Positions 3,368-23,787 of a stretch of DNA of 64,000 nucleotides are shown piece after piece (positions within the stretch are counted from its first letter, which is position 1; every line of letters begins with the position of its first letter). The notes under the pieces are model-generated. The model had not been told where the DNA came from. It saw nothing but the letters and a program-made list of their open reading frames with translations, and did no database searches. The position numbers and the translations under genes were made by a program. This DNA comes from Massilia alkalitolerans DSM 17462 (GTDB lineage: Bacteria > Pseudomonadota > Gammaproteobacteria > Burkholderiales > Burkholderiaceae_D). The DNA is taken from positions 222,882-286,881 of the forward strand of contig NZ_ATYR01000002.1 of assembly GCF_000427785.1 (NCBI RefSeq), given 5' to 3'.

Positions 3368-3691
3368 ATGTCCGCACCCTATGAAACCGCCCAGCCCGAA
3401 CGCAGCGCCGTCGACGCCATGCCCGGCACCGTGATGCTCGATTTCGGCGCCAACTGGTGCGGCTACTGCCGCGCCGCCGAGCCCTTGATCGACGAGGCCC
3501 TGGCCGGCAGCCAGGGTGTGCGCCACGTGAAGGTGGAAGACGGGCCCGGCCGCCCGCTGGGGCGCTCGTTCCGCATCAAGCTGTGGCCGACCGTGGTTGT
3601 CCTCAAGGATGGGCAAGAGGTGGCGCGCGTGGTGCGTCCGGTGTCCGCCGACGAAGTACGCGTCGCACTGGCCCAGGCCGGTGCAGCATGA
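3368..3691 (+). CDS. Thioredoxin family protein
   Basis: A 107-aa cytoplasmic thioredoxin-fold protein with no signal peptide. The active site WCGYC (C31, C34) is followed by the cis-Pro segment LWPTVVVLKDG, both diagnostic. It would catalyse thiol-disulfide exchange. A CGYC dithiol differs from the CGPC of housekeeping thioredoxin, so a specialised or stress role is likely. The ATG at 3368 has a strong AAGGAGG site 7-8 bp upstream, although the frame stays open further back. Its TGA overlaps the ATG of the MFS gene (ATGA), so the two are translationally coupled. Confidence 0.88.
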   Translation: MSAPYETAQPERSAVDAMPGTVMLDFGANWCGYCRAAEPLIDEALAGSQGVRHVKVEDGPGRPLGRSFRIKLWPTVVVLKDGQEVARVVRPVSADEVRVALAQAGAA

Positions 3692-4992
3692 GCGAGGCTG
3701 CCGCCGCCCTTCCAGCCAACAAGCCGCGCACCGTCCTGTTCGCGAGCCTGATCGGCACCACCATCGAGTTCTACGACTTCTACATCTACGCCACCGCCGC
3801 GGTGCTGGTCTTCCCGCGCCTGTTCTTCCCGGCCGCCGACCCGGCCGCAGCGACCCTGCAGTCGCTGGCCACCTTCGCCATCGCCTTCTTCGCCCGGCCG
3901 GTGGGTTCGGCCGTCTTCGGCCACTTCGGCGACCGCATCGGCCGCAAGGCGACCCTGGTGGCGGCGCTGCTCACGATGGGCATTTCCACCGTGCTGATCG
4001 GCCTGCTGCCCACCTATGATTCGATCGGCACGCTGGCGCCGCTGCTGCTGGCCCTGTGCCGCTTCGGCCAGGGCCTGGGCCTGGGCGGCGAGTGGGGCGG
4101 AGCGGTGCTGCTGGCAACCGAGAATGCGCCGCCCGGCAAGCGCGCCTGGTACGGCATGTTCCCGCAGCTGGGGGCGCCGATCGGCTTCTTCCTGTCGGGC
4201 GGCACCTTCCTGCTGCTGGGCACCCTGATGGCGGACGAGGAGTTCTTCCGCTGGGGCTGGCGGATTCCCTTCCTGGCCAGCGCACTGCTGGTGCTGGTCG
4301 GGCTGTACGTGCGCCTGAAGATCACCGAGACCCCGGATTTCCAGAAGGTGCTGGATCGTAACGAGCGGGTCAAGGTGCCGGCGCTGGCGGTGCTCAAGGA
4401 CCACACCCGCGCGCTGGTGCTGGGCACCGTCGTCGCGCTGGCGACCTTCGTGGTGTTCTACCTGATGACGGTGTTCGCGCTGAGCTGGGGCACCACCAGG
4501 CTGGGCTTCTCGCGCCAGGCCTTCCTCACCATGCAGCTGGTCGCGGTGGTGTTCTTCGCGCTGACGATCCCGCCGTCGGCAGTGCTGGCCGACCGCCACG
4601 GACGGCGCATGGCGATGATCCTGGTGAGCGCGGCGATCGCCGTGTTCGGGCTGCTGTTCGGACCCCTGTTCGGTTCCGGCACCCTGGTTTCGGTGGGCGC
4701 CTTCATGGTGCTCGGCATGTGCCTGATCGGCTTTACCTACGGGCCGCTGGGCACCTTGCTGGCCGAGCTGTTCCCGGCCGAGGTGCGCTACACCGGCGCC
4801 TCGCTGACCTTCAACTTCGCCGGCATCCTGGGCGCCTCGCTGGCGCCCTACATCGCCACCTGGCTGGCCACCAACTACGGGCTGGCCTGGGTCGGCTACT
4901 ACCTGACGGCTGCGGCACTGCTGAGCCTGTTTGCCCTGCTGGCGGTCGGCGACGGGCACGCCAAGCCTGCGCCGCAGCCGGCGTCCCGCTGA
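3688..4992 (+). CDS. MFS transporter, metabolite:H+ symporter (MHS/ProP-like) family
   Basis: A 434-aa membrane protein with about 12 hydrophobic segments. The MHS-family motif FGDRIGRKAT follows TM2, and GTTIEFYDFYIYAT in TM1 is characteristic of MHS proteins (proline/betaine, shikimate, alpha-ketoglutarate, citrate carriers). GQGLGLGGEWGGA in TM4 is another family mark. The substrate is not determinable from sequence. It overlaps the thioredoxin gene by 4 bp and is followed by a GC-rich hairpin. Pairing of an MHS carrier with a small thioredoxin is common and suggests no obvious pathway. Confidence 0.9.
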   Translation: MSEAAAALPANKPRTVLFASLIGTTIEFYDFYIYATAAVLVFPRLFFPAADPAAATLQSLATFAIAFFARPVGSAVFGHFGDRIGRKATLVAALLTMGISTVLIGLLPTYDSIGTLAPLLLALCRFGQGLGLGGEWGGAVLLATENAPPGKRAWYGMFPQLGAPIGFFLSGGTFLLLGTLMADEEFFRWGWRIPFLASALLVLVGLYVRLKITETPDFQKVLDRNERVKVPALAVLKDHTRALVLGTVVALATFVVFYLMTVFALSWGTTRLGFSRQAFLTMQLVAVVFFALTIPPSAVLADRHGRRMAMILVSAAIAVFGLLFGPLFGSGTLVSVGAFMVLGMCLIGFTYGPLGTLLAELFPAEVRYTGASLTFNFAGILGASLAPYIATWLATNYGLAWVGYYLTAAALLSLFALLAVGDGHAKPAPQPASR

Positions 4993-15671: not shown

Positions 15672-15944
15672 TTACTCTTTTTCCGGGACGCCCTGCGAGG
15701 GCACCGGTGTCTTCAGTGCGTCGGGCAGCGCGTCGGCGATGCCGTTCTCGGGCATCTGGCCGACCCGGCGCGCCTCGTCGGAATGCTGGTCGAGGCTGAC
15801 TTCCTCGGCGACGTCGAAGCGGCCGTCCTCGGCGCCTTCCTCACCGGGAAGCAGATTGTCGGAACGCTGGTCCTGGCCGCCGCCGGCGACGGGGTTCGCC
15901 TGCGGCCGGGCCTGCTCGTTTTCTGGCTGGGGTGCTGGGGCCAT
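15672..15944 (-). CDS. Small acidic disordered hypothetical protein
   Basis: A 90-aa protein, strongly acidic and rich in Pro, Glu, Gln and Ala (for example QPENEQARPQANPVAGGGQD). It has no signal peptide, membrane segment or Cys. I do not recognise a family. The ATG at 15944 is chosen because AGGAGGA sits 5-6 bp upstream; an in-frame ATG nine codons earlier lacks a ribosome site. It resembles in style the disordered hypothetical protein at 42950-43288, and both lie among stress genes. A role in desiccation or osmotic protection is only a guess. Confidence 0.55.
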   Translation of the reverse strand: MAPAPQPENEQARPQANPVAGGGQDQRSDNLLPGEEGAEDGRFDVAEEVSLDQHSDEARRVGQMPENGIADALPDALKTPVPSQGVPEKE

Positions 15945-16009
15945 GCTGTCCTCCTGTTGACGGTTTTTCATGACCCATTATCGCGCCGCGCCCGCCGGCC
16001 GGGCGCACG

Positions 16010-16279
16010 CTAGTCGCGCCGCTCCTTGCGCGGCAGGTTCTTTTCCACGATCGCCCACACGATCATCCCGTAGGCCAGTACCCGGATCAGGTAGTGCAGC
16101 GGTGAATCCTCGCCGGCCTCGTTCAGCACCGCGGAATAGATGCGGTGCACGCCTTCGATGAAGAAGGACAGGGCGAACCAGAGGAAGAAGCGGTCGCCGG
16201 TATTGCGCCAGAAGCGCAGGAAGAACAGGGCGATGGTGAGCGAAGCCATCGAGATCGCGCCGTACATCATCTGGACCAT
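16010..16279 (-). CDS. DUF5985-like small membrane protein (operon gene 3)
   Basis: An 89-aa protein with three hydrophobic helices (residues about 4-24, 29-45, 64-80) and the segment FWRNTGDRFFLWFALSFFIE, typical of DUF5985. The tail is basic (KNLPRKERRD). It starts 4 bp after the stop of a second, similar membrane protein and is last in a three-gene operon led by an HTH protein. Function is unknown. The paired occurrence of two related three-helix proteins suggests a heteromeric membrane complex, which is inference. Confidence 0.72.
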   Translation of the reverse strand: MVQMMYGAISMASLTIALFFLRFWRNTGDRFFLWFALSFFIEGVHRIYSAVLNEAGEDSPLHYLIRVLAYGMIVWAIVEKNLPRKERRD

Positions 16280-16283
16280 CGGC

Positions 16284-16541
16284 TCACTCCTTCTCGTAGA
16301 TCAGGCCGTACAACAACAGCAGGCATGCCACCAGGGCGCTGATGACCCGCAGCGGCATGAAATCGACATTCGGAAACACGATCTTGTCGAAAATCAGGAA
16401 CAGGTTATTGAAAGTCATCACCGCAAAGCACAGACCGCTCCAGAACAGGAGCCGGTAACGCGTGCGCCGGTAGCTGGCGAACAGGAGCCAGGTACAGGCC
16501 AGCGAGGTCAACATGCACAAGGTGTAGATGAGTTCGCCCAT
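16284..16541 (-). CDS. DUF5985-like small membrane protein (operon gene 2)
   Basis: An 85-aa protein with three hydrophobic helices and the segment RTRYRLLFWSGLCFAVMTFNN. This matches the position of RNTGDRFFLWFALSFF in its downstream neighbour, so the two are likely distant paralogues. Its ATG overlaps the TAA of the HTH gene (TAATG), showing translational coupling, and the third gene starts 4 bp after its stop. No function is known. Confidence 0.72.
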   Translation of the reverse strand: MGELIYTLCMLTSLACTWLLFASYRRTRYRLLFWSGLCFAVMTFNNLFLIFDKIVFPNVDFMPLRVISALVACLLLLYGLIYEKE

Positions 16542-16933
16542 TAGGTATCCTTTCGCAGGCGGAAGGCGTCGGCGAACTGCTGCGCCTTGCGGTCGAGAGT
16601 GGAATGGATGAGGTTGGTGACGTCCACCAGGTGACGCGCGTAGAGCTCGGCCAGGCCGTCGATCCGCTCGCGCAGCGCTTCGGACGCAGGGGAATAGCAA
16701 TAGGAATGCTCGTTCGGCGCAGGGCAGGGCGCGGCCATGCCGGATCGGCACAGCTCGTCGAGGAGTGCCTGGGCGGTACGCTCACTGGTATACAAGCGGC
16801 GCGCCAGCGTCTCTCCGCTCCATTGCTGGCCGGAATTCGCGCGCAGCAGCAGCAGCGCCTCGAGGAAGGGCACGGAGGGAATGCTCGTCAGGACAAAACG
16901 GCGCAAGTCCTCTGGGATTGGCGGACGGTTCAT
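16541..16933 (-). CDS. Winged-helix DNA-binding-like protein (operon gene 1)
   Basis: A 130-aa soluble protein. Residues about 22-75 read as a winged helix (VPFLEALLLLRANSGQQWSG, then TSERTAQALLDEL with a recognition-helix look). A helical C-terminus with YARHLVDVTNLIHSTLDRKA follows and could dimerise. It resembles MarR/PadR-like regulators but is not a clear member of either. As the first gene of an operon with two small membrane proteins it may be a local regulator, perhaps held or released by them. The start at 16933 begins the conserved-looking MNRPPIPEDLRRFVL. Confidence 0.6.
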   Translation of the reverse strand: MNRPPIPEDLRRFVLTSIPSVPFLEALLLLRANSGQQWSGETLARRLYTSERTAQALLDELCRSGMAAPCPAPNEHSYCYSPASEALRERIDGLAELYARHLVDVTNLIHSTLDRKAQQFADAFRLRKDT

Positions 16934-17925: not shown

Positions 17926-18180
17926 ATGCCGAAGAAACCGTTCAAGCCCTTTGCCAATGAAGCCGACGTCCTCGAGATCGGCAACTTGATGCTGGAGAAC
18001 CGGCTCGACCGCATCACCATCTCCGGCGACGTCGACCTGACCGCCGACAAGGCCGGGCTCGCGCTGGCGCGCCGCCTGCACGCGCAACTGGGCGCGGTGG
18101 TCGAGGCACTCAAGGCGCGCGAGCTGCCCGACCGCCTGCCGCCGCCCGACGTCGATACCGTCGACAATCCCTTCGCCTGA
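17926..18180 (+). CDS. Conserved small hypothetical protein
   Basis: An 84-aa soluble protein with FANEADVLEIGNLMLENRLD and ISGDVDLTADKAGLALARRL. The pattern looks conserved across Burkholderiales in my recollection, but I cannot name the family and no function is known. AAGGAAA lies 9 bp before the ATG. It starts 25 bp after the endonuclease stop and is probably co-transcribed with it. Confidence 0.65.
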   Translation: MPKKPFKPFANEADVLEIGNLMLENRLDRITISGDVDLTADKAGLALARRLHAQLGAVVEALKARELPDRLPPPDVDTVDNPFA

Positions 18181-18330
18181 CTCCCCCAGGTCCTGTCCGG
18201 GTCGCCGGTTCGCATAGCACATGAGGGCGCAACCGGGCCGTACCGTTCCGCACGTCAAAGGTGCGCAGGGGCCCACGGAAAAGGCGTAATCTCGTTCGCT
18301 CCCCAACCGGCGATGCGAGGAGCTTTCCCG

Positions 18331-18768
18331 ATGTCGAGCAATATCCCCGAGAACAAGCAGCAGGAAGGCCTGCGCATACCCGTGATCGAGGAGCAGCTGG
18401 CCGTCGGTACTCGCGTCGTCGAGACCGGCCGCGGCGTACGTGTCCACAAGACGGTCAGCGAACAACCGGTCACCATCGACGAGCGCCTCATGCGCGAAGA
18501 GGTGGATGTCCGGCACGTTCCCGTGGACAGGATCGTCGCGCCGGAAGAAGCACCTGCAAGCCGCTACGAAGGCGACACGCTGGTGGTGCCGGTTCTCGAA
18601 GAAGTGTTGGTGGTCGAACGCCGCCTGCGCATCAAGGAAGAACTGCACATCACCCGGGTCCGGCACGAGGAGCCTTACCGAGAGACCGTTCCGCTCAAGG
18701 CGGAACGGGTCGAGGTGGAGCGCTTCGACGACGCCGGACCGCCGCCCGCATCCGATACCCACCAATGA
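18331..18768 (+). CDS. YsnF/AvaK domain (DUF2382) stress protein
   Basis: A 145-aa soluble protein made almost wholly of a DUF2382 domain: LRIPVIEEQLAVGTRVVETG, VDVRHVPVDRIV, then a second half-repeat LVVPVLEEVLVVERRLRIKE. The alternating charged beta-strand pattern is typical of general stress protein YsnF and cyanobacterial AvaK. GAGGAG precedes the ATG at 18331; an upstream in-frame ATG lacks a ribosome site. The same domain type recurs inside the next gene (18782-19993), 13 bp downstream, so the two are probably in one stress transcript. Confidence 0.82.
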   Translation: MSSNIPENKQQEGLRIPVIEEQLAVGTRVVETGRGVRVHKTVSEQPVTIDERLMREEVDVRHVPVDRIVAPEEAPASRYEGDTLVVPVLEEVLVVERRLRIKEELHITRVRHEEPYRETVPLKAERVEVERFDDAGPPPASDTHQ

Positions 18769-18781
18769 TGGAGGAACGACC

Positions 18782-19993
18782 ATGCAACATACTTTGGTAG
18801 CCGTATTCGATAACAACGCCGACGCGCGCAGCGCGATGGACGAACTGCTCGCCTCGGGCTTCTCGCGCCAGGACGTGCGCATGTCCGGCGACACCGGCGC
18901 CGGCATCACCGGCAGCTCCAGCACCACCACCACGACCACCACGGCCACGTCCACCGACACCGACACGGGCATCGGCAGCAGCATCAAGAATTTCTTCAGC
19001 GACCTGTTCGGCAGTGACGAGGACGACAGCCGCCGCCTCAGCCGCTACGAAGGCGCCGTCTCCGGCGGCAAGTGCGTGATCACCCTGACCGCCGATTCGC
19101 TGCCGGAGGTCGAGCGCGCCGCCGACATCGTCGAGCGCTTCGGTCCGATCGACATCGACGAGCACTCGGACAACGTCGGCAAGATGGCGTCCAGCGGGGC
19201 CATGCTGCAGGGCAGCCAGAGCGGCATGCAGTCGTACTCGACGTCCACCCAGTCGGCCTCGGCCCAGCAGCAGGGCGCCCTGTCCGGCGCCTCGCTGCAG
19301 CGCGACACCGCGATGGAAGCCGGCCGCACCGGCAGCACCCAGTCCATTCCCGTCGTCGAAGAACAGCTGAAGGTCGGCAAGCGCGAAGTCCAGCGTGGCG
19401 GCGTGCGCATCTACTCGCGCGTGGTCGAGACCCCGGTCGACGAGACCGTCGGCCTGCGCGAAGAACACGTCGACGTCCAGCGCCGCGCCGTCGACCAGCC
19501 GATCAGCCCGGCCGACGCGACCGCGTTCAAGGAACAGACCATCGAAATGCGCGAGACCGCTGAAGAAGCGGTGGTCGAGAAATCGGCCCGGATCGTCGAG
19601 GAAGTCACGGTCGGCAAGCAGGTCAATGAACGCCAGGAGCAGATCCACGACACCGTGCGCCATACCGAGGTGGACGTGCAGCGCCTGGACGGCAGCACGG
19701 CGCGCTCCGACCTGCGCGACGACGACAGCTATTTCCGCAACCACTTCACCAGCACCTACGGGGCCACCGGTGCATCGTATGACGATTATGCGCCGGCCTA
19801 CAGCTACGGTTCGCAGATGGCCAGCAGCGGCCGCTATACCGGACGCCAGTGGGACGACGTCGAATCCGACCTGCGTACCGACTGGGAATCGCGCTACAGC
19901 GGCGGCCCCTCGACCTGGGAAAAGATGAAGGCCGCGGTGCGGCACGGCTGGGACCGCATGACCGGCGACACCGGCACCAACCGGACCTACTGA
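18782..19993 (+). CDS. Stress protein A: YflT-like N-terminus, DUF2382, one C-terminal GWDRMT repeat
   Basis: A 403-aa soluble protein with a mosaic layout. Residues 1-120 are a YflT/GSP17M-like heat-stress domain (MQHTLVAVFDNNADARSAMD, FFSDLFGSDEDD, LPEVERAADIVERFGPIDID). A Ser/Thr/Gln-rich linker follows (Thr run near 45-55). A DUF2382 domain lies at about 183-300 (SIPVVEEQLKVGKREVQRGG). One copy of the C-terminal repeat is at about 311-395, ending TWEKMKAAVRHGWDRMTGD. The first 12 residues and ribosome site (GGAGGAACGACC) are nearly identical to those of the next two genes, showing tandem duplication. Function is unknown beyond likely stress induction. Confidence 0.8.
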   Translation: MQHTLVAVFDNNADARSAMDELLASGFSRQDVRMSGDTGAGITGSSSTTTTTTTATSTDTDTGIGSSIKNFFSDLFGSDEDDSRRLSRYEGAVSGGKCVITLTADSLPEVERAADIVERFGPIDIDEHSDNVGKMASSGAMLQGSQSGMQSYSTSTQSASAQQQGALSGASLQRDTAMEAGRTGSTQSIPVVEEQLKVGKREVQRGGVRIYSRVVETPVDETVGLREEHVDVQRRAVDQPISPADATAFKEQTIEMRETAEEAVVEKSARIVEEVTVGKQVNERQEQIHDTVRHTEVDVQRLDGSTARSDLRDDDSYFRNHFTSTYGATGASYDDYAPAYSYGSQMASSGRYTGRQWDDVESDLRTDWESRYSGGPSTWEKMKAAVRHGWDRMTGDTGTNRTY

Positions 19994-20015
19994 GCCCGCT
20001 TATCCGCAGTACCGA

Positions 20016-20037
20016 CGGCGCCTGCGGGCGCCGTTTT
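20016..20037 (+). terminator. Terminator after stress protein A
   Basis: CGGCGCC and GGCGCCG arms around TGCG are followed by TTTT, 23 bp after the stop codon. Confidence 0.7.
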
Positions 20038-20080
20038 CCATCCTTCCTACTGTCCCGTCAGGCGCGCGCGCGTACAGCCG

Positions 20081-20106
20081 GGTTTGGAGTAATCTGGTCC
20101 CGTGCA
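20081..20106 (+). promoter_or_regulatory. Shared upstream motif of stress protein B (candidate promoter element)
   Basis: The segment GGTTTGGAGTAATCTGG followed by GTGCA lies 143 bp before gene B. A near match (TTGGAGTAGGCTGG and GTGCA) lies at 22331-22356, 113 bp before gene C. GGCGTAATCT at 18283-18292 upstream of the DUF2382 gene matches its core at 9 of 10 positions. A shared stress-promoter element is plausible but the sigma factor is not identifiable. Confidence 0.35.
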
Positions 20107-20223
20107 TTTGCGCGCGGCGGGCTGGCGCGCGAGCTGTCTCGACCTCGTCCTACTCACGCGAGCGGTCCGGGGCCGGATTGTTCGGCAGCCACCCCCGTCA
20201 CTCACTTTAAGGGAGGAATGACC

Positions 20224-22227
20224 ATGCAACATACTCTTGTAGCCGTGTTCGACAACCGGACCGACGCACAGAATGCGATGAACGAGCTCATGTCCTCGGG
20301 CTTCTCGCGTGACGAGGTCAAGTTGAGCAATGCCGACCCGACCGGCATGACCGACAGCGTCACCGGCAGCACCGGGGACACCGGCCGCAGCGACACCCTG
20401 GCCGACGGCACCGGGATCGGCATCGGCGCTTCCATCAAGCACTTCTTCACCGACCTGTTCGGCGCTGACAACAGCGAGCATGCCAGCAGGTACGAGGGCG
20501 CGGTCACCCGCGGCCACCACGTGCTCACCGTGCGCGCCCAATCCCTGCCGGAAGTCGAACGCGCCGCCGACATCATCGAACGCTATGGTCCCACCGATAT
20601 CGACGAGCAGGCATCGGGCGTCGGCGCGATGGGCGCCGGCAGCGGTCTGTCGGAGTCGATGCGCATGAGCGGCAGCACGACGGCCGGCAGCGGCAGCCTC
20701 GGAACGGCGGCGGGCACCGGCGCAGCCACGGGCGCCAGCCAGCAGCTCGACAACCCCGGCGACCGCAAGATCTTCCAGCAGCAGTCGCTGCACCAGGCCG
20801 AACCGATGGGAACCACCTACCAGGAACCGATGGGCCAGAGCGGCCTGAGCGCGACTGGCGGCACCTCGCTCCAGGGTTCGACCCTGCAGGAAAACTCGGT
20901 GCAGGCCTCGTCGCTCGAAGGCACGCAGAACGACATGTCGATCCGCAGTTCGGGCGGCCAGGGCGGCACCCTGCAGGGCTCCTCGCTGGAAGGGTCGGCG
21001 ATGCAGGGAGGCGCCGGCTCGATGCAGCGCGATACCGCGATGGGCTCTTCGCCGGGCAGCAGCCGCTTCACCGAGACCCAGCGCGGCAAGTCGCGCATCT
21101 ACTCGCCGGGAGCTACCACGGCAGGGACCGGCAGCGGGCTGGATATCGGCAGCAATTTCTTCCGCGATGATGACGATTACTACCGCAACCACTTCCTGGC
21201 CAACTACAGCGGCGAGGACTACGACCGCATGAAGCCAGCCTACGCCTACGGCTCCGAGATGGCGCGCAACGACAAGTACCGCGGCCGCAAGTGGGACGAG
21301 GTCGAGAACGACCTGCGCAGCGACTGGAGTACCCGCAGCGGCGATACCGCCGGCGACACCTGGGACCGCATGAAGGCCGCCGTGCGCCGCGGCTGGGATC
21401 GCATGACCAGCGACGATGACGACACCATCTACCGCAGCCACTTCAGCAGCACCTATGGAACGGCGGGTGGATCGTACGACGACTACGCGCCGGCCTACAG
21501 CTACGGCGCCGACAGCGCACGCAGCGACAGGTACCGCGGCCGCCGGTGGGACGAGGTCGAGAACGACCTGCACAGCGACTGGGACACCCGTAGCGGCAGC
21601 ACTGCCGGTTCTACCTGGGAAAAGATGAAGTCGGCCGTGCGCCGTGGCTGGGACCGCATGACCCTCGACAAGGACGACGACAGCTATTACCGCAGCCACT
21701 ACGACAGCACGCTGGGAAGCTCGGGCATGGATTACGACAGCGTCAAGCCGGCCTATGCCTACGGATCCGAGATGCGCAAGAGCGAGCTCTACCGTAATCG
21801 TCCGTGGGACGACATCGAGGGCGACCTGGCGCGCGGCTGGGATTCGCGGATCTCGGGCGGCACCGGCTCGGCCACCACGGCCGGCACGGGTACCGGCGTG
21901 GGCGGCGCCTGGGACAGGATGAAGTCTGCCGTACGTCATGGCTGGGACCGCATGACGGACGACGACGACAACGACCGCGAATACCGCAGTCACTGGAACG
22001 CCACCTACAGCACCTCCAGCGACGCCGGCAGCTATGACGACTACAAGCCGGCCTACGCCTATGGTTCGTCGATGGCCCAGGATCCGAAATACCGCGGTCG
22101 CCAGTGGGGCGAAGTCGAGAACGACCTGCGCACCGACTGGGATACCCGCTACGGCAGCGGTGGCCAGTCGACCTGGGAGAAAATGAAGTCGGCTGTGCGC
22201 CATGGCTGGGATCGGATGACCTCCTGA
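20224..22227 (+). CDS. Stress protein B: YflT-like N-terminus plus four GWDRMT repeats
   Basis: A 667-aa soluble protein. Residues 1-125 form the YflT/GSP17M-like domain (TLVAVFDNRTDAQNAMNEL, FFTDLFGADNSEHASRYEG, LPEVERAADIIERYGPTDID). Residues 125-310 are a Gly/Ser/Gln-rich linker with SLEG and LQGS repeats. Four tandem copies of an 82-97-residue module start near residues 314, 396, 481 and 578. Each has acidic DDD, YRxHF or YRSHY, PAYxYG, YRGRxWDEVE, DLRxDW and TWxxMKxAVRxGWDRMT. Unlike protein A it lacks DUF2382. No known family is assigned to the repeat. It resembles GWD/DRMT-rich stress proteins of Oxalobacteraceae only by recollection. Confidence 0.75.
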   Translation: MQHTLVAVFDNRTDAQNAMNELMSSGFSRDEVKLSNADPTGMTDSVTGSTGDTGRSDTLADGTGIGIGASIKHFFTDLFGADNSEHASRYEGAVTRGHHVLTVRAQSLPEVERAADIIERYGPTDIDEQASGVGAMGAGSGLSESMRMSGSTTAGSGSLGTAAGTGAATGASQQLDNPGDRKIFQQQSLHQAEPMGTTYQEPMGQSGLSATGGTSLQGSTLQENSVQASSLEGTQNDMSIRSSGGQGGTLQGSSLEGSAMQGGAGSMQRDTAMGSSPGSSRFTETQRGKSRIYSPGATTAGTGSGLDIGSNFFRDDDDYYRNHFLANYSGEDYDRMKPAYAYGSEMARNDKYRGRKWDEVENDLRSDWSTRSGDTAGDTWDRMKAAVRRGWDRMTSDDDDTIYRSHFSSTYGTAGGSYDDYAPAYSYGADSARSDRYRGRRWDEVENDLHSDWDTRSGSTAGSTWEKMKSAVRRGWDRMTLDKDDDSYYRSHYDSTLGSSGMDYDSVKPAYAYGSEMRKSELYRNRPWDDIEGDLARGWDSRISGGTGSATTAGTGTGVGGAWDRMKSAVRHGWDRMTDDDDNDREYRSHWNATYSTSSDAGSYDDYKPAYAYGSSMAQDPKYRGRQWGEVENDLRTDWDTRYGSGGQSTWEKMKSAVRHGWDRMTS

Positions 22228-22282
22228 TCGAGCGCCATGCTAGGGCGGCCTGGTAAATAGCCAGGAACGCCGCTGACCATCC

Positions 22283-22320
22283 AAAGCCCCCCAGGGTCGA
22301 ACCTGGGGGGCTTTTTCTTT
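22283..22320 (+). terminator. Strong terminator after stress protein B
   Basis: AAAGCCCCCCAGG pairs with CCTGGGGGGCTTT around a 6-nt loop, followed by TTCTTT. It shows that gene C needs its own promoter. Confidence 0.9.
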
Positions 22321-22330
22321 TCGGTGAGCT

Positions 22331-22356
22331 GGTATTGGAGTAGGCTGGATGGTGCA
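22331..22356 (+). promoter_or_regulatory. Shared upstream motif of stress protein C
   Basis: GGTATTGGAGTAGGCTGG followed by GTGCA aligns with the element at 20081-20106 apart from one indel and a few substitutions. It lies directly after the terminator of gene B and 113 bp before gene C, the position expected of a promoter. Confidence 0.35.
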
Positions 22357-22443
22357 ACGGCCAAGCGCCGGAGCGGGACGGGCCGGTCGGTTCGGCAGCC
22401 GGGATTGGCGCGCCCCGGGACTCACCGATTGGGAGGAACGACC

Positions 22444-23787
22444 ATGCAACATACTCTTGTAGCTGTGTTCGGTAACCGGACCGACGCACAGAATGCGATG
22501 ACCGAGCTGATTTCCTCGGGTTTCCCGCGCGAGGACCTCACGCTCTCCAGCGCCGATCCGACCGGCATGACCGACAGCGCAAGCGGCGCCGGCGGCAGCG
22601 CCACCCCGGGAGGCGGCACCGACGCCGGGAATGGCGCCAACCTGAGGCGCGTGTTTACCGACCTGTTCGGCGCCGACAACAGCCCGCGCGCCAGCCGGTA
22701 CGCGGGCGCAGTCACCCGGGGCCACCACGTGCTGGTGGTGCGCGTCGATTCGCTGCCGGAAGCCGAGCGCGCCGCCGACATCGTCGAGCGCTTCGGCCCC
22801 TCGGACGTCGACGAGGAGGCAATGCCTGGCAGACCGCCCGAATCGATGCGCATGGGCGAAGCCGGCAGCATGCAGCAGGCTTCGCCGGCGCCGGCGCAGC
22901 CGCGCGCAGGGAGCAGGCCGCATCTCGACAACCCGGGCGACGGCATGATCTTCCAGCAGCATTCGCTGTACCAGTCCAAGCCGACGGGCGGGACCTACCA
23001 GGAGCCCCTCAGATCGAGCGGCCTCGGCGCGACCGGCAGCACCTCGCTGCACGGCTCGACCTTGCGCGAGAATGCAGCCCACGTCCCCACGTTCGAGGAC
23101 ATCGAGACGGGCGGCGGCGAATCAATGCAGCGCGAATCGGGCCCGGGCGGCGTGCCCGTGGCGAGCCCGCGCCTTGCCGAGACCCAGCGCGGCCGGTCAC
23201 GCATCTATTCGGCGGAACCCGAGTCGCCCGCAGGTGGGGGCAGCGGCCTGGACATCGGCAGCAATTTTTTCGGCGATGATGACGATTACTACCGCAACCA
23301 TTTCCTGTCCAACTACAGCGGCGAGGACTACGACCGAGTCAAGCCGGCCTATGCCTACGGCGCCGACATGGCACGCCACGACAAGTATCACGGCCGCGCT
23401 TGGCATGAGGTCGAGAGCGAGCTGCGCCGGGAGTGGGAGGTCCTCAATGCAGGGGTGGCCGGTTTGACCTGGGAAAGGATGAAGGCCGCCGTACGCCGCG
23501 GCTGGGACCGGATGACGGTGCACCGCGACGCCGACAGCTACTACCGCAGCCACTACGACACCCACCTGGGCGGCTCGGGGATGGAGTACGACAGCGTTAA
23601 GCCAGCGTATTCGTTCGGCGCCGAGATGCGCAGGAGCGAGCTGTACCGCAACCGCCCGTGGGACGACGTCGAGGGCGACCTGGCGCGCGCCTGGGGTGAG
23701 CGTCGCGGCACCAGCGCCGGCAAGGGAAGTGCCTGGGATCGCATCAAGGCGGCGGTGCGGCATGGGTGGGAGCGGATCAAGTCATGA
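22444..23787 (+). CDS. Stress protein C: YflT-like N-terminus plus two GWDRMT-type repeats
   Basis: A 447-aa paralogue of protein B. The YflT-like domain (residues 1-125) starts with the same MQHTLVAVFGNRTDAQNAM and ribosome site GGGAGGAACGACC. The linker at 125-275 keeps the order of B (LDNPGDGMIFQQHSLYQSKP, TYQEP, LHGST), but is shorter. Two repeat modules begin near residues 277 and 361. They are closest to repeats 1 and 3 of protein B (NYSGEDYDRVKPAYAYGADM; LGGSGMEYDSVKPAYSFGAE), so C looks like a B-type gene that lost or never gained two modules. The last module ends AVRHGWERIKS, a diverged version of GWDRMT. Confidence 0.75.
   Translation: MQHTLVAVFGNRTDAQNAMTELISSGFPREDLTLSSADPTGMTDSASGAGGSATPGGGTDAGNGANLRRVFTDLFGADNSPRASRYAGAVTRGHHVLVVRVDSLPEAERAADIVERFGPSDVDEEAMPGRPPESMRMGEAGSMQQASPAPAQPRAGSRPHLDNPGDGMIFQQHSLYQSKPTGGTYQEPLRSSGLGATGSTSLHGSTLRENAAHVPTFEDIETGGGESMQRESGPGGVPVASPRLAETQRGRSRIYSAEPESPAGGGSGLDIGSNFFGDDDDYYRNHFLSNYSGEDYDRVKPAYAYGADMARHDKYHGRAWHEVESELRREWEVLNAGVAGLTWERMKAAVRRGWDRMTVHRDADSYYRSHYDTHLGGSGMEYDSVKPAYSFGAEMRRSELYRNRPWDDVEGDLARAWGERRGTSAGKGSAWDRIKAAVRHGWERIKS

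Follow-up and report, generated by a model that had tools for sequence, protein, structure and literature searches.

A predicted helical module absent from Pfam and NCBIfam occurs once, four times, and twice in three stress-type genes of Massilia alkalitolerans

The analyzed window, a 64,000-nucleotide stretch of the genome of Massilia alkalitolerans DSM 17462, contains three neighboring intact open reading frames on the + strand, termed genes A, B, and C. They follow a gene of the DUF2382 (YsnF-type) family (18331..18768, + strand), which matches the Pfam model PF09557 with 58.5 bits at a cut-off of 23. Gene A (18782..19993, 403 aa) encodes a YflT-like N-terminus, a DUF2382 domain, and one copy of the module that is the subject of this study, while in gene B (20224..22227, 667 aa) a YflT-like N-terminus is followed by a Gly/Ser/Thr-rich linker (20.1% Gly, 47.3% Gly+Ser+Thr) and four modules. 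Gene C (22444..23787, 447 aa) combines a YflT-like N-terminus and a linker with two modules, one of the B1 and one of the B3 type. The initial annotation described the N-termini as almost identical, which applies to the very start (MQHTLVAVF in all three proteins) but not to the N-terminal ~125-130 residues, where protein identity amounts to 59% (A-B), 54% (A-C), and 70% (B-C). Pfam YflT (PF11181) aligns with ~40-90 N-terminal residues of A, B, and C at 24.6, 24.2, and 16.8 bits, all below the curated cut-off of 26.2, and the proteins are therefore termed YflT-like only. The DUF2382 domain of A (residues 189-299, 86.2 bits, same curated cut-off of 23 bits) has no counterpart in B or C according to the Pfam search. 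Hence, the proposed link between one paralogue and the adjacent DUF2382 gene was confirmed, and filing the three genes under stress proteins is sound on account of their YflT-like and DUF2382 parts. Judged by the gap of 13 nt, the DUF2382 gene and A are probably co-transcribed. A weak terminator-like hairpin after A (20016..20037, + strand; CGGCGCC stem followed by four T) was recognized by eye only and is missing from the terminator scan, which returned an intrinsic-terminator-like hairpin of 13 pairs after B (22283..22314, + strand). No membrane family, including Gly-zipper, exceeded its Pfam cut-off in A, B, or C, and no signal peptide was evident by eye.

The module comprises 82-98 residues, and its seven aligned copies share 24 invariant columns. 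All copies lie on the + strand and were defined by alignment, complemented by the predicted structure for A1 (19715..19963), by a tree and the predicted structure for B1 (21163..21408), B2 (21409..21660), B3 (21664..21954, in which the loop from helix 3 to helix 4 is longer), and B4 (21961..22224), and by the tree for C1 (23272..23517, B1 type) and C2 (23521..23784, B3 type). Motif and alignment both returned the copy numbers of one, four, and two that had been counted originally. The alignment of A1 with B3 scored 243 compared with a maximum of 22 among 200 shuffles, so that the likeness between modules is not due to chance. The closest pairs by protein identity are C1-B1 (73%) and C2-B3 (72%), in agreement with the earlier observation that gene C best matches repeats 1 and 3 of gene B. 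Tandem Repeats Finder detected no DNA-level array in the locus because the copies have diverged to 67-83% DNA identity. The module is under purifying selection, with dN/dS values (NG86) of 0.11-0.20 for modules versus 0.30-0.57 for linkers in four comparisons; within gene B the contrast is mild (modules 0.16-0.20, linker 0.30-0.34, YflT-like part 0.24-0.28). Trp occurs four or five times and Tyr 6-8 times per module, and helices 3 and 4 display conserved hydrophobic faces. The motif order is fixed across arrays, single-copy, fusion, and stand-alone proteins (the latter being open frames of 108-150 residues and one annotated gene of 105), with two relatives (L246 and L248) matching only partly.

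In order to place the module among described domains, A-C proteins and diverse relatives were compared with Pfam and NCBIfam, and no significant model was found for it. The profile search proposed with the initial annotation, which could not assign the module, thus yielded no match to a characterized family in either collection. Weak matches to DUF6842 (Pfam), MutT (NCBIfam), and the sll1863 family, as well as PRC-barrel proteins with W-repeat tails (L084-L086), were dismissed as chance or low complexity. A sequence search of solved structures gave no credible match (best E 1.2 and 0.084), and text searches of the literature, none of them by sequence, retrieved no paper describing the module and no report on expression, phenotype, or binding of the proteins concerned. 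Among Pfam, NCBIfam, and PHROGs, the only counterpart is the PHROGs family phrog_18476 (209 aa), whose positions ~119-206 match the module and which was matched by 15 out of 21 diverse module members (best E 5.6e-12). From these comparisons, the module appears as a new domain family that is absent from Pfam and NCBIfam and lies inside an unnamed PHROGs family.

Structure prediction supports a folded unit. AlphaFold2 modeled A1 from a 71-row alignment with a pLDDT of 88.1 and a pTM of 0.79, placing helices at residues 3-21, 25-40, 49-63, and 71-86, of which helices 3 and 4 are amphipathic. The model of the B array shows 16 helices, four per copy, at an overall pLDDT of 71.0. Its pTM is 0.36 and the packing between copies is not confident, leaving self-assembly without direct support. 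Disorder had been named as an outcome that would speak against a common fold; helices were predicted instead, four in A1 and in each of B1-B4, the five copies modeled. Foldseek returned no row up to E 10 for the single module against the PDB, a result that neither establishes a new fold nor excludes the CsbD fold, and 14 rows for the array model, none at E 0.001. Against viral models, nine rows were obtained for the module (best E 2.3), none of them significant. VIA-align, with four chains compared, gave a best Z of 2.3 to an alpha-hemoglobin stabilizing protein, which is meaningless for a helical bundle. Overall, we regard it as very likely that the module is a real folded domain.

Extension of the search to other genomes recovered the module in 90 of 195 genomes of the family, 21 of 300 of the order, 8 of 369 of the class, and 17 of 398 of the phylum, three of the phylum-level matches being taken as chance. 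By sequence comparison, it thus occurs in several families of Pseudomonadota, mostly at the C-terminus and together with stress-type partners. These partners are YflT-like and DUF2382 domains as well as DUF2383 and Gly-zipper, the latter two exceeding Pfam cut-offs. The YflT-like-DUF2382-module architecture recurs in three proteins (L243-L245) belonging to two further families of the class. Fusion of Gly-zipper to the module is found in the relative L094 (four stretches, 36.4 bits) and furthermore in L047 of the present genome (by eye) and L249 of Acinetobacter (below the cut-off). Viral contigs gave 21 pattern matches, none being a relative, and module A1 had no match in phage records. A divergent module matched four phage records, all named “Acinetobacter phage MD-2021a” with contigs of 18.7 to 379 kb. 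Phage carriage is not claimed, as an MFS transporter, katE, and LysR in stretches of two of the “MD-2021a” records look bacterial. Among plasmids, four Caballeronia and Paraburkholderia records with sizes of 0.85-1.83 Mb were matched.

A two-part promoter-like element, GTCAANGGTGYGC-N20-TARYCT, accompanies these genes. At one mismatch, it is present in 47 of 61 genomes of the genus (56 matches in total, 0 in the control) and missing from 14. Thirty-one sites were inspected, and at 29 of them a DUF2382 or YflT-like match first begins at most 160 nt from the element start; the module is visible within 1.5 kb in 21 of those 29. The order of a DUF2382 gene followed by a YflT-like gene is repeated behind the element in several related genomes. 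Within the genus, the element therefore seems nearly confined to DUF2382/YflT-like/module genes, which points to a findable regulator. At the locus, the DUF2382-A unit is preceded by GTCAAAGGTGCGC-N20-TAATCT (18254..18292, + strand; 0 mismatches to the consensus). The consensus scan placed a variant in front of B (20057..20095, + strand) with the upstream box GTCAGGCGCGCGC (3 mismatches) and the downstream box TTGGAGTAATCT. Only a half-element, TTGGAGTAGGCT (22335..22346, + strand), precedes C, its upstream GTCAANGGTGYGC box not being recognizable. At three mismatches, three further matches were found in this genome and one in the control; the former were rejected as chance, preceding phage-tail-like, transposase-like, and response-regulator-like genes (by eye). 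Likewise, TTGGAGTARBCT matched twice here, before B and C, and also twice in the control. Considered alone, the B element is no better than such chance matches, so that the case for B rests on its position and on the related genes; co-regulation of A and B is regarded as likely. A scan for the sigma-70 consensus revealed no promoter upstream of A, B, or C.

Among 89 genes, the number of module copies varies from one to six, and copies cluster in the tree by array position across species. This supports gain and loss of copies, as suggested initially with recombination as the cause, but not free shuffling; varying numbers in combination with grouping by position point to slow internal gain and loss. 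Proteins with DUF2382 mostly carry one or two modules, whereas those without it mostly carry three or more: at least three copies were counted in 5 of 57 genes with DUF2382 versus 24 of 31 without (Fisher p 7e-11, with related genes treated as independent). Gene C reads as a B-type gene holding the B1 and B3 types. Since its upstream box is missing and its modules sit on long tree branches (0.27 and 0.36), it may be decaying or differently regulated.

Published work provides some context for the partner domains. According to excerpts of the source, YflT (BC0998) and CsbD (BC0999) of Bacillus cereus are SigB-dependent heat-shock proteins (PMC9912610). Excerpts of a second study call AvaK an akinete marker, report its induction in a Nostoc strain that overproduces alkanes, and describe the role of the CsbD protein as largely obscure (PMC7660261). 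On an Acinetobacter contig, a 105-aa stand-alone module follows a Q/N-rich hydrophilic open reading frame and is located ~1.4 kb from a Haem_oxygenas_2 protein, which itself lies directly upstream of katE. Based on the Pfam match and gene order, this protein may be dtpC-like. In A. baumannii, as far as excerpts of the source state, far fewer cells survive drying when dtpC and katE are lost together, and the two genes are clustered with the hydrophilins dtpA and dtpB (PMC13232832). The Acinetobacter link is one of neighborhood only, on a contig deposited as phage. Considering these contexts, a role of the module genes in stress or desiccation appears reasonably likely. Together with the shared element and the domain spread, the Acinetobacter desiccation context is new beyond the initial annotation.

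The explanation that we consider best, with about an even chance of being correct as a whole, is that of co-regulated stress proteins in which a new helical module serves as a multivalent scaffold. A, B, and C would be general-stress proteins of the cytoplasm, composed of a YflT-like N-terminus, DUF2382 in the case of A, and one, four, or two module copies, and their genes would be induced jointly by drying, osmotic, or oxidative stress. The module would act as a folded helical adaptor binding either a partner protein or other modules of the same kind, which is the weakest step; multivalent protein binding by the module is possible, though we lean against it. One copy beside DUF2382, as in A, would provide a low-valency version of a protective scaffold; in B and C, several copies flexibly strung along a Gly/Ser/Thr-rich tether would provide a high-valency one, and the scaffold would organize cell components while water is lost. 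A broader claim, which we rate as rather unlikely, would be that the module founds an undescribed helical family, core to the desiccation and general-stress response of many Pseudomonadota, with Massilia setting the dose of multivalent scaffolds by array length (1 to 6) under a dedicated regulator acting on these genes alone via GTCAANGGTGYGC-N20-TARYCT.

Other readings have to be weighed against this scaffold. The module could be envelope-associated, a soluble part paired with membrane-inserting Gly-zipper segments that in A-C attaches to the membrane or binds partners of this type. The Gly-zipper fusions of L094, L047, and L249 and the amphipathic helices 3 and 4 would suit this, but A, B, and C lack a membrane family match above cut-off and an evident signal peptide, and YflT and DUF2382 proteins are generally regarded as cytoplasmic, which also counts against it; we consider it unlikely. 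The hydrophilicity of the B modules (GRAVY -1.40, 10.2% Gly), the composition of the B linker, and the Q/N-rich neighbor in Acinetobacter would fit mainly disordered, hydrophilin- or LEA-like protectants in which copy number only adds bulk. Against this quite improbable reading stand the Trp and Tyr content, the conserved hydrophobic faces, the single-module pLDDT of 88, which argues for a folded module, and position-specific conservation across species, a pattern that disordered protectants are not expected to preserve. Binding of nucleic acid, which had been suggested initially and would compact or protect DNA or RNA under stress, could draw on the conserved R/K/W positions. It lost ground as the net charge is negative in six of the seven copies (-2 to -5) and +2 in the remaining one, the conserved Trp would be more in keeping with a helix core than with a surface patch, and no such family was matched in Pfam or NCBIfam, so that its prospects are slim indeed.

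Furthermore, the last helix of the module (W..MK.AVR.GWDRMT) resembles the first helix of CsbD (W..KG.vKe.WGkLT), raising the idea that the module is a CsbD-like domain, either diverged or circularly permuted, and that the genes encode CsbD-type stress proteins. B has a weak NCBIfam match (E 0.015, residues 559-581) to NF007748, which we take to be a CsbD/YjbJ-type model, and hhalign against 12 CsbD proteins gave probabilities of 16% for the natural-order profile A4 and 20% for an array-internal profile starting at the last helix (P about 1e-3), with reversed and column-shuffled controls at 0.5% or less. Two profiles of greater diversity, A6 and A2, however, reached only 4% and 2%, and the alignment stays within one helix (17-19 columns), the permuted profile included. 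Neither A-C nor 21 diverse modules matched Pfam CsbD (PF05532) in a search with an E limit of 10, in which HMMER filters drop most matches of E >0.1. The motif order does not change in single-copy and stand-alone proteins, and two ordinary CsbD genes exist elsewhere in the genome. With a single helix matching in natural and array-internal profiles alike, tested against these controls, membership by circular permutation was not adopted, and we consider a CsbD-type identity very unlikely.

Stress proteins of the YflT and DUF2382 kind, like those of the CsbD kind, are common, and their roles are mostly obscure. A third recurrent domain joins such parts in one polypeptide, and natural versions with one to six copies offer an experimental handle, array length being variable in genes and in purified proteins. 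If the role in drying survival is true, it bears on bacterial persistence in dry places.

Among known systems, phrog_18476 covers the module under a label without assigned function, and the “phage” records inspected resemble bacterial contigs. CsbD/YjbJ, a short stress protein, shares a W..K..V/A...W stretch with the last helix of the module, but the likeness ends there. The Acinetobacter dtpA/dtpB/dtpC-katE cluster is comparable in that, on an Acinetobacter contig, a stand-alone module gene has a dtpC-like gene and katE in its vicinity; the cluster's proteins are different ones, and excerpts of the source contain no mention of the module protein (PMC13232832). DUF2382, known from YsnF-AvaK (PF09557, TIGR02271), is shared by A and its upstream gene, while B and C do without it. 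YflT, or general stress protein 17M (PF11181), corresponds to the N-terminal ~40-90 residues of all three proteins, which differ from it by continuing into linkers, DUF2382, and/or module arrays.

Genes A (18782-19993, 403 aa), B (20224-22227, 667 aa) and C (22444-23787, 447 aa) are intact neighbors on the + strand, and the deduced proteins share the start MQHTLVAVF. Pfam YflT aligned to their N-termini with 24.6, 24.2, and 16.8 bits, respectively, all under the curated cut-off of 26.2. A additionally carries a DUF2382 domain (residues 189-299, Pfam) and is directly preceded by a DUF2382 protein gene (18331-18768, Pfam). At the C-termini, one (A1), four (B1-B4), and two (C1, C2) copies of a module of ~80 residues are found. 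This confirmed the initial annotation, which had described three adjacent paralogs with these copy numbers: 24 columns are invariant in all seven copies, and alignment scores lie far above shuffles (A1-B3 243, compared with at most 22 in 200 shuffles). Its statement that C best matches repeats 1 and 3 of B also holds, C1 being nearest to B1 and C2 to B3. Overall, its observations stood, while its interpretation was supported in part only. Farther upstream on the - strand, two adjacent DUF5985 proteins form a tandem paralogous pair (16010-16279 and 16284-16751; 99.0 and 103.7 bits); Pfam scans of two small ORFs, 15672-15971 (-, 99 aa) and 17926-18177 (+, 84 aa), gave no match at E 0.001.

Both the status of the module as a real domain, uncatalogued in Pfam and NCBIfam, and its predicted fold are well supported. 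Scanning whole proteins or 21 diverse modules against these two collections gave no significant module match, in line with the earlier failure to assign it to a known domain. In PHROGs, it corresponds to the C-terminal part of the unnamed family phrog_18476 (15 of the 21 diverse members match, best E 5.6e-12). Besides arrays, a single module ends YflT-like-DUF2382 proteins, follows Gly-zipper segments, precedes DUF2383, or stands alone in open frames of 108-150 residues; motif order is constant across array, single-copy, fusion, and stand-alone modules, with Y, Y, P-A-Y, G, E, W, W, A, and W kept in nearly all of the 21 diverse rows. NG86 counts of the window versus two Massilia relatives resulted in dN/dS values of 0.11-0.20 for modules, 0.30-0.57 for linkers, 0.24-0.51 for YflT-like parts, and 0.04-0.07 for DUF2382 of A. 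AlphaFold2 predicted four helices for A1 with 70 relatives (pLDDT 88.1, pTM 0.79; five models spanning 84-88) and sixteen for the B array, four per copy (pLDDT 71, pTM 0.36), a four-helix prediction shared by A1 and B1-B4; the low pTM leaves the arrangement of the B copies not confident.

The distribution was surveyed by profile searches. Scoring was limited to at most 13 to 27 candidates in each genome, so weak members may have been missed, and each tally counts the window's own genome. The module was found in at least 90 of 195 genomes (24 of 44 genera) on family level, at least 21 of 300 on order level, and at least 8 of 369 on class level (profile A6, E 1e-4). At least 17 of 398 genomes match on phylum level, three of them through PRC-barrel-like proteins with W-rich amphipathic tails (L084, L085, L086), whose weak matches (E ~3e-4 to 7e-4) probably reflect composition and were discounted as chance. 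A scan of named genomes yielded 365 relatives from 427 candidate stretches. The best 80 of these represent 77 loci, mostly of Massilia, plus Telluria, Janthinobacterium, Noviherbaspirillum, and a few others, including one MAG named Acidobacteriaceae. Among 117 compared modules, that of Massilia sp. 9I is closest to A1 (92% identical), which points to a Massilia-like origin of the window. Outside the window, the own genome hosts two further module genes: L009 (C1, locus 3427-4770), with two to three degenerate modules (74.7, 37.2, and 9.5 bits), and L047 (C9, locus 1060-2634), with repeated glycine-rich, by eye zipper-like segments followed by one divergent module. In the similar protein L094, Pfam detects four Gly-zipper stretches. 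In L055, L056, and L063, from genomes of ~1.4 to 2.5 Mb, long amphipathic repeats precede the module (the latter two judged by eye); an apolipoprotein-like match of L055 reached 22 bits, far under the cut-off of 90.

The 89 module genes within the 77 loci of the best 80 relatives contain one (45), two (15), three (14), four (7), five (7), or six (1) copies, counted by the PAYxYG motif; the profile count is higher in three genes owing to copies split by the profile, e.g., L119 (PAYxYG motif 3, W motif 4). Genes with DUF2382 have one (39), two (13), three (4), or four (1) copies, compared with one (5), two (2), three (10), four (6), five (7), or six (1) in genes with the YflT-like part alone; one short ORF has neither. 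Three or more copies thus occur in 5 of 57 genes with versus 24 of 31 without DUF2382 (Fisher p 7e-11, taking related genes as independent). Two architectures emerge from this split: a YflT-like part with DUF2382 and few modules, or a YflT-like part with a linker and a module string. A tree of the 117 modules was built from few columns, left 56 of its 114 inner branches open, and has SH-aLRT values as its only support; in it, copies of several species group by type: B1 (9 rows, SH-aLRT 99), B2 (4 rows, 95), B3 (13 rows, 92), and B4 (6 rows, 89). The B2 type is absent from some three-copy arrays (L101), and gene C has only B1 and B3 types, both on long branches. Consequently, the proposed gain and loss of copies inside arrays can be retained, but without homogenization, as copies group by type between species.

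A two-part promoter-like element, absent from the initial annotation, is on sequence grounds strikingly specific. The 77 loci and the window together contain 31 matches to the pattern TTGGAGTA[AG].CT, always on the module-gene strand, and alignment of 21 non-redundant sites revealed a second conserved box 14 nt upstream of the TTGGAGTA box. With at most one mismatch, GTCAANGGTGYGC-N20-TARYCT gave 56 matches (backward control 0), spread over 47 of 61 genus genomes. Of these 56 sites, 31 were examined; in 29, no more than 160 nt separate the start of the element from the beginning of the first DUF2382 or YflT-like match. The module is visible within 1.5 kb in 21 of the 29, the 1.5-kb stretch ending before it in the other eight. 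The exceptions are L211 (own genome) and L228. Since the element was derived from such genes, its presence before them is expected; the telling result is that it appears hardly anywhere else in the genus, suggesting near-confinement to YflT-like-module and DUF2382 genes (window; L100-L176, L213-L241). It precedes the DUF2382-A gene pair as a perfect match (18254-18292) and B with three mismatches (20057-20095); before C, the downstream half alone remains (22335-22346). Seven related loci (L100, L101, L102, L104, L105, L115, L122), read off pattern matches, also have the B-form upstream box, [GT]CAG-N-CGCGCGC, at an unchanged spacing from TTGGAGTA. TARYCT could be a -10 hexamer, which would place the upstream box near -39, a possible binding position for an activator or an unusual sigma factor. 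Downstream of B, a strong terminator-like hairpin is present. Taken from these sequence features, co-regulation of A and B appears fairly supported. Three further 3-mismatch matches in the own genome (control 1) look like chance; this probably includes L212 (C42), 86 nt upstream of a response-regulator-like gene, a neighbor that would be of interest if the match were real.

We propose that A, B, and C are soluble general-stress proteins, a role suggested by context, in which the module would act as a folded helical adaptor binding a protein partner or itself. A would represent the low-valency and B the high-valency form, and, induced jointly, the two may build or organize an assembly that protects cells under stress or during drying. 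A CsbD-like domain is a rival reading; the own genome also has two ordinary CsbD genes, and the module scans gave no significant Pfam or NCBIfam match. A mainly disordered protectant would have to be reconciled with the predicted four-helix fold. Nucleic-acid binding, previously suggested by the W/R/K-rich motif, was not borne out: conserved and hydrophobic residues of helices 3 and 4 face roughly one side, which fits a helix core, and net charge is negative in six of seven copies, so that the motif is explicable without nucleic acid. The most serious rival is an envelope-associated unit, because Gly-zipper fusions of the module recur.

The module represents a new domain variant, of putative function, inside a known kind of stress protein. 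SigB-dependent heat-shock proteins of Bacillus cereus include YflT (BC0998) and CsbD (BC0999) (PMC9912610). The DUF2382-type NCBIfam model takes its name from AvaK, which is described as an akinete marker and as induced in an alkane-overproducing Nostoc (PMC7660261). The name Acinetobacter phage MD-2021a was given on deposition to the contigs L249 and L250 (208 and 379 kb); their opened stretches carry MFS, LysR, and katE genes, and despite this name both resemble bacterial contigs. On L250, the one opened of two contigs with such a match, a 105-aa stand-alone module protein directly follows a Q/N-rich hydrophilic 73-aa ORF (2617-2838), and ~1.4 kb away a Haem_oxygenas_2 protein, by domain and gene order readable as DtpC, lies directly upstream of katE. 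The consulted text of PMC13232832, which names no module protein, describes heme-oxygenase-like DtpC and KatE of A. baumannii as one operon, either alone sufficing for drying survival, within a BfmR-dependent cluster together with the hydrophilins dtpA and dtpB.
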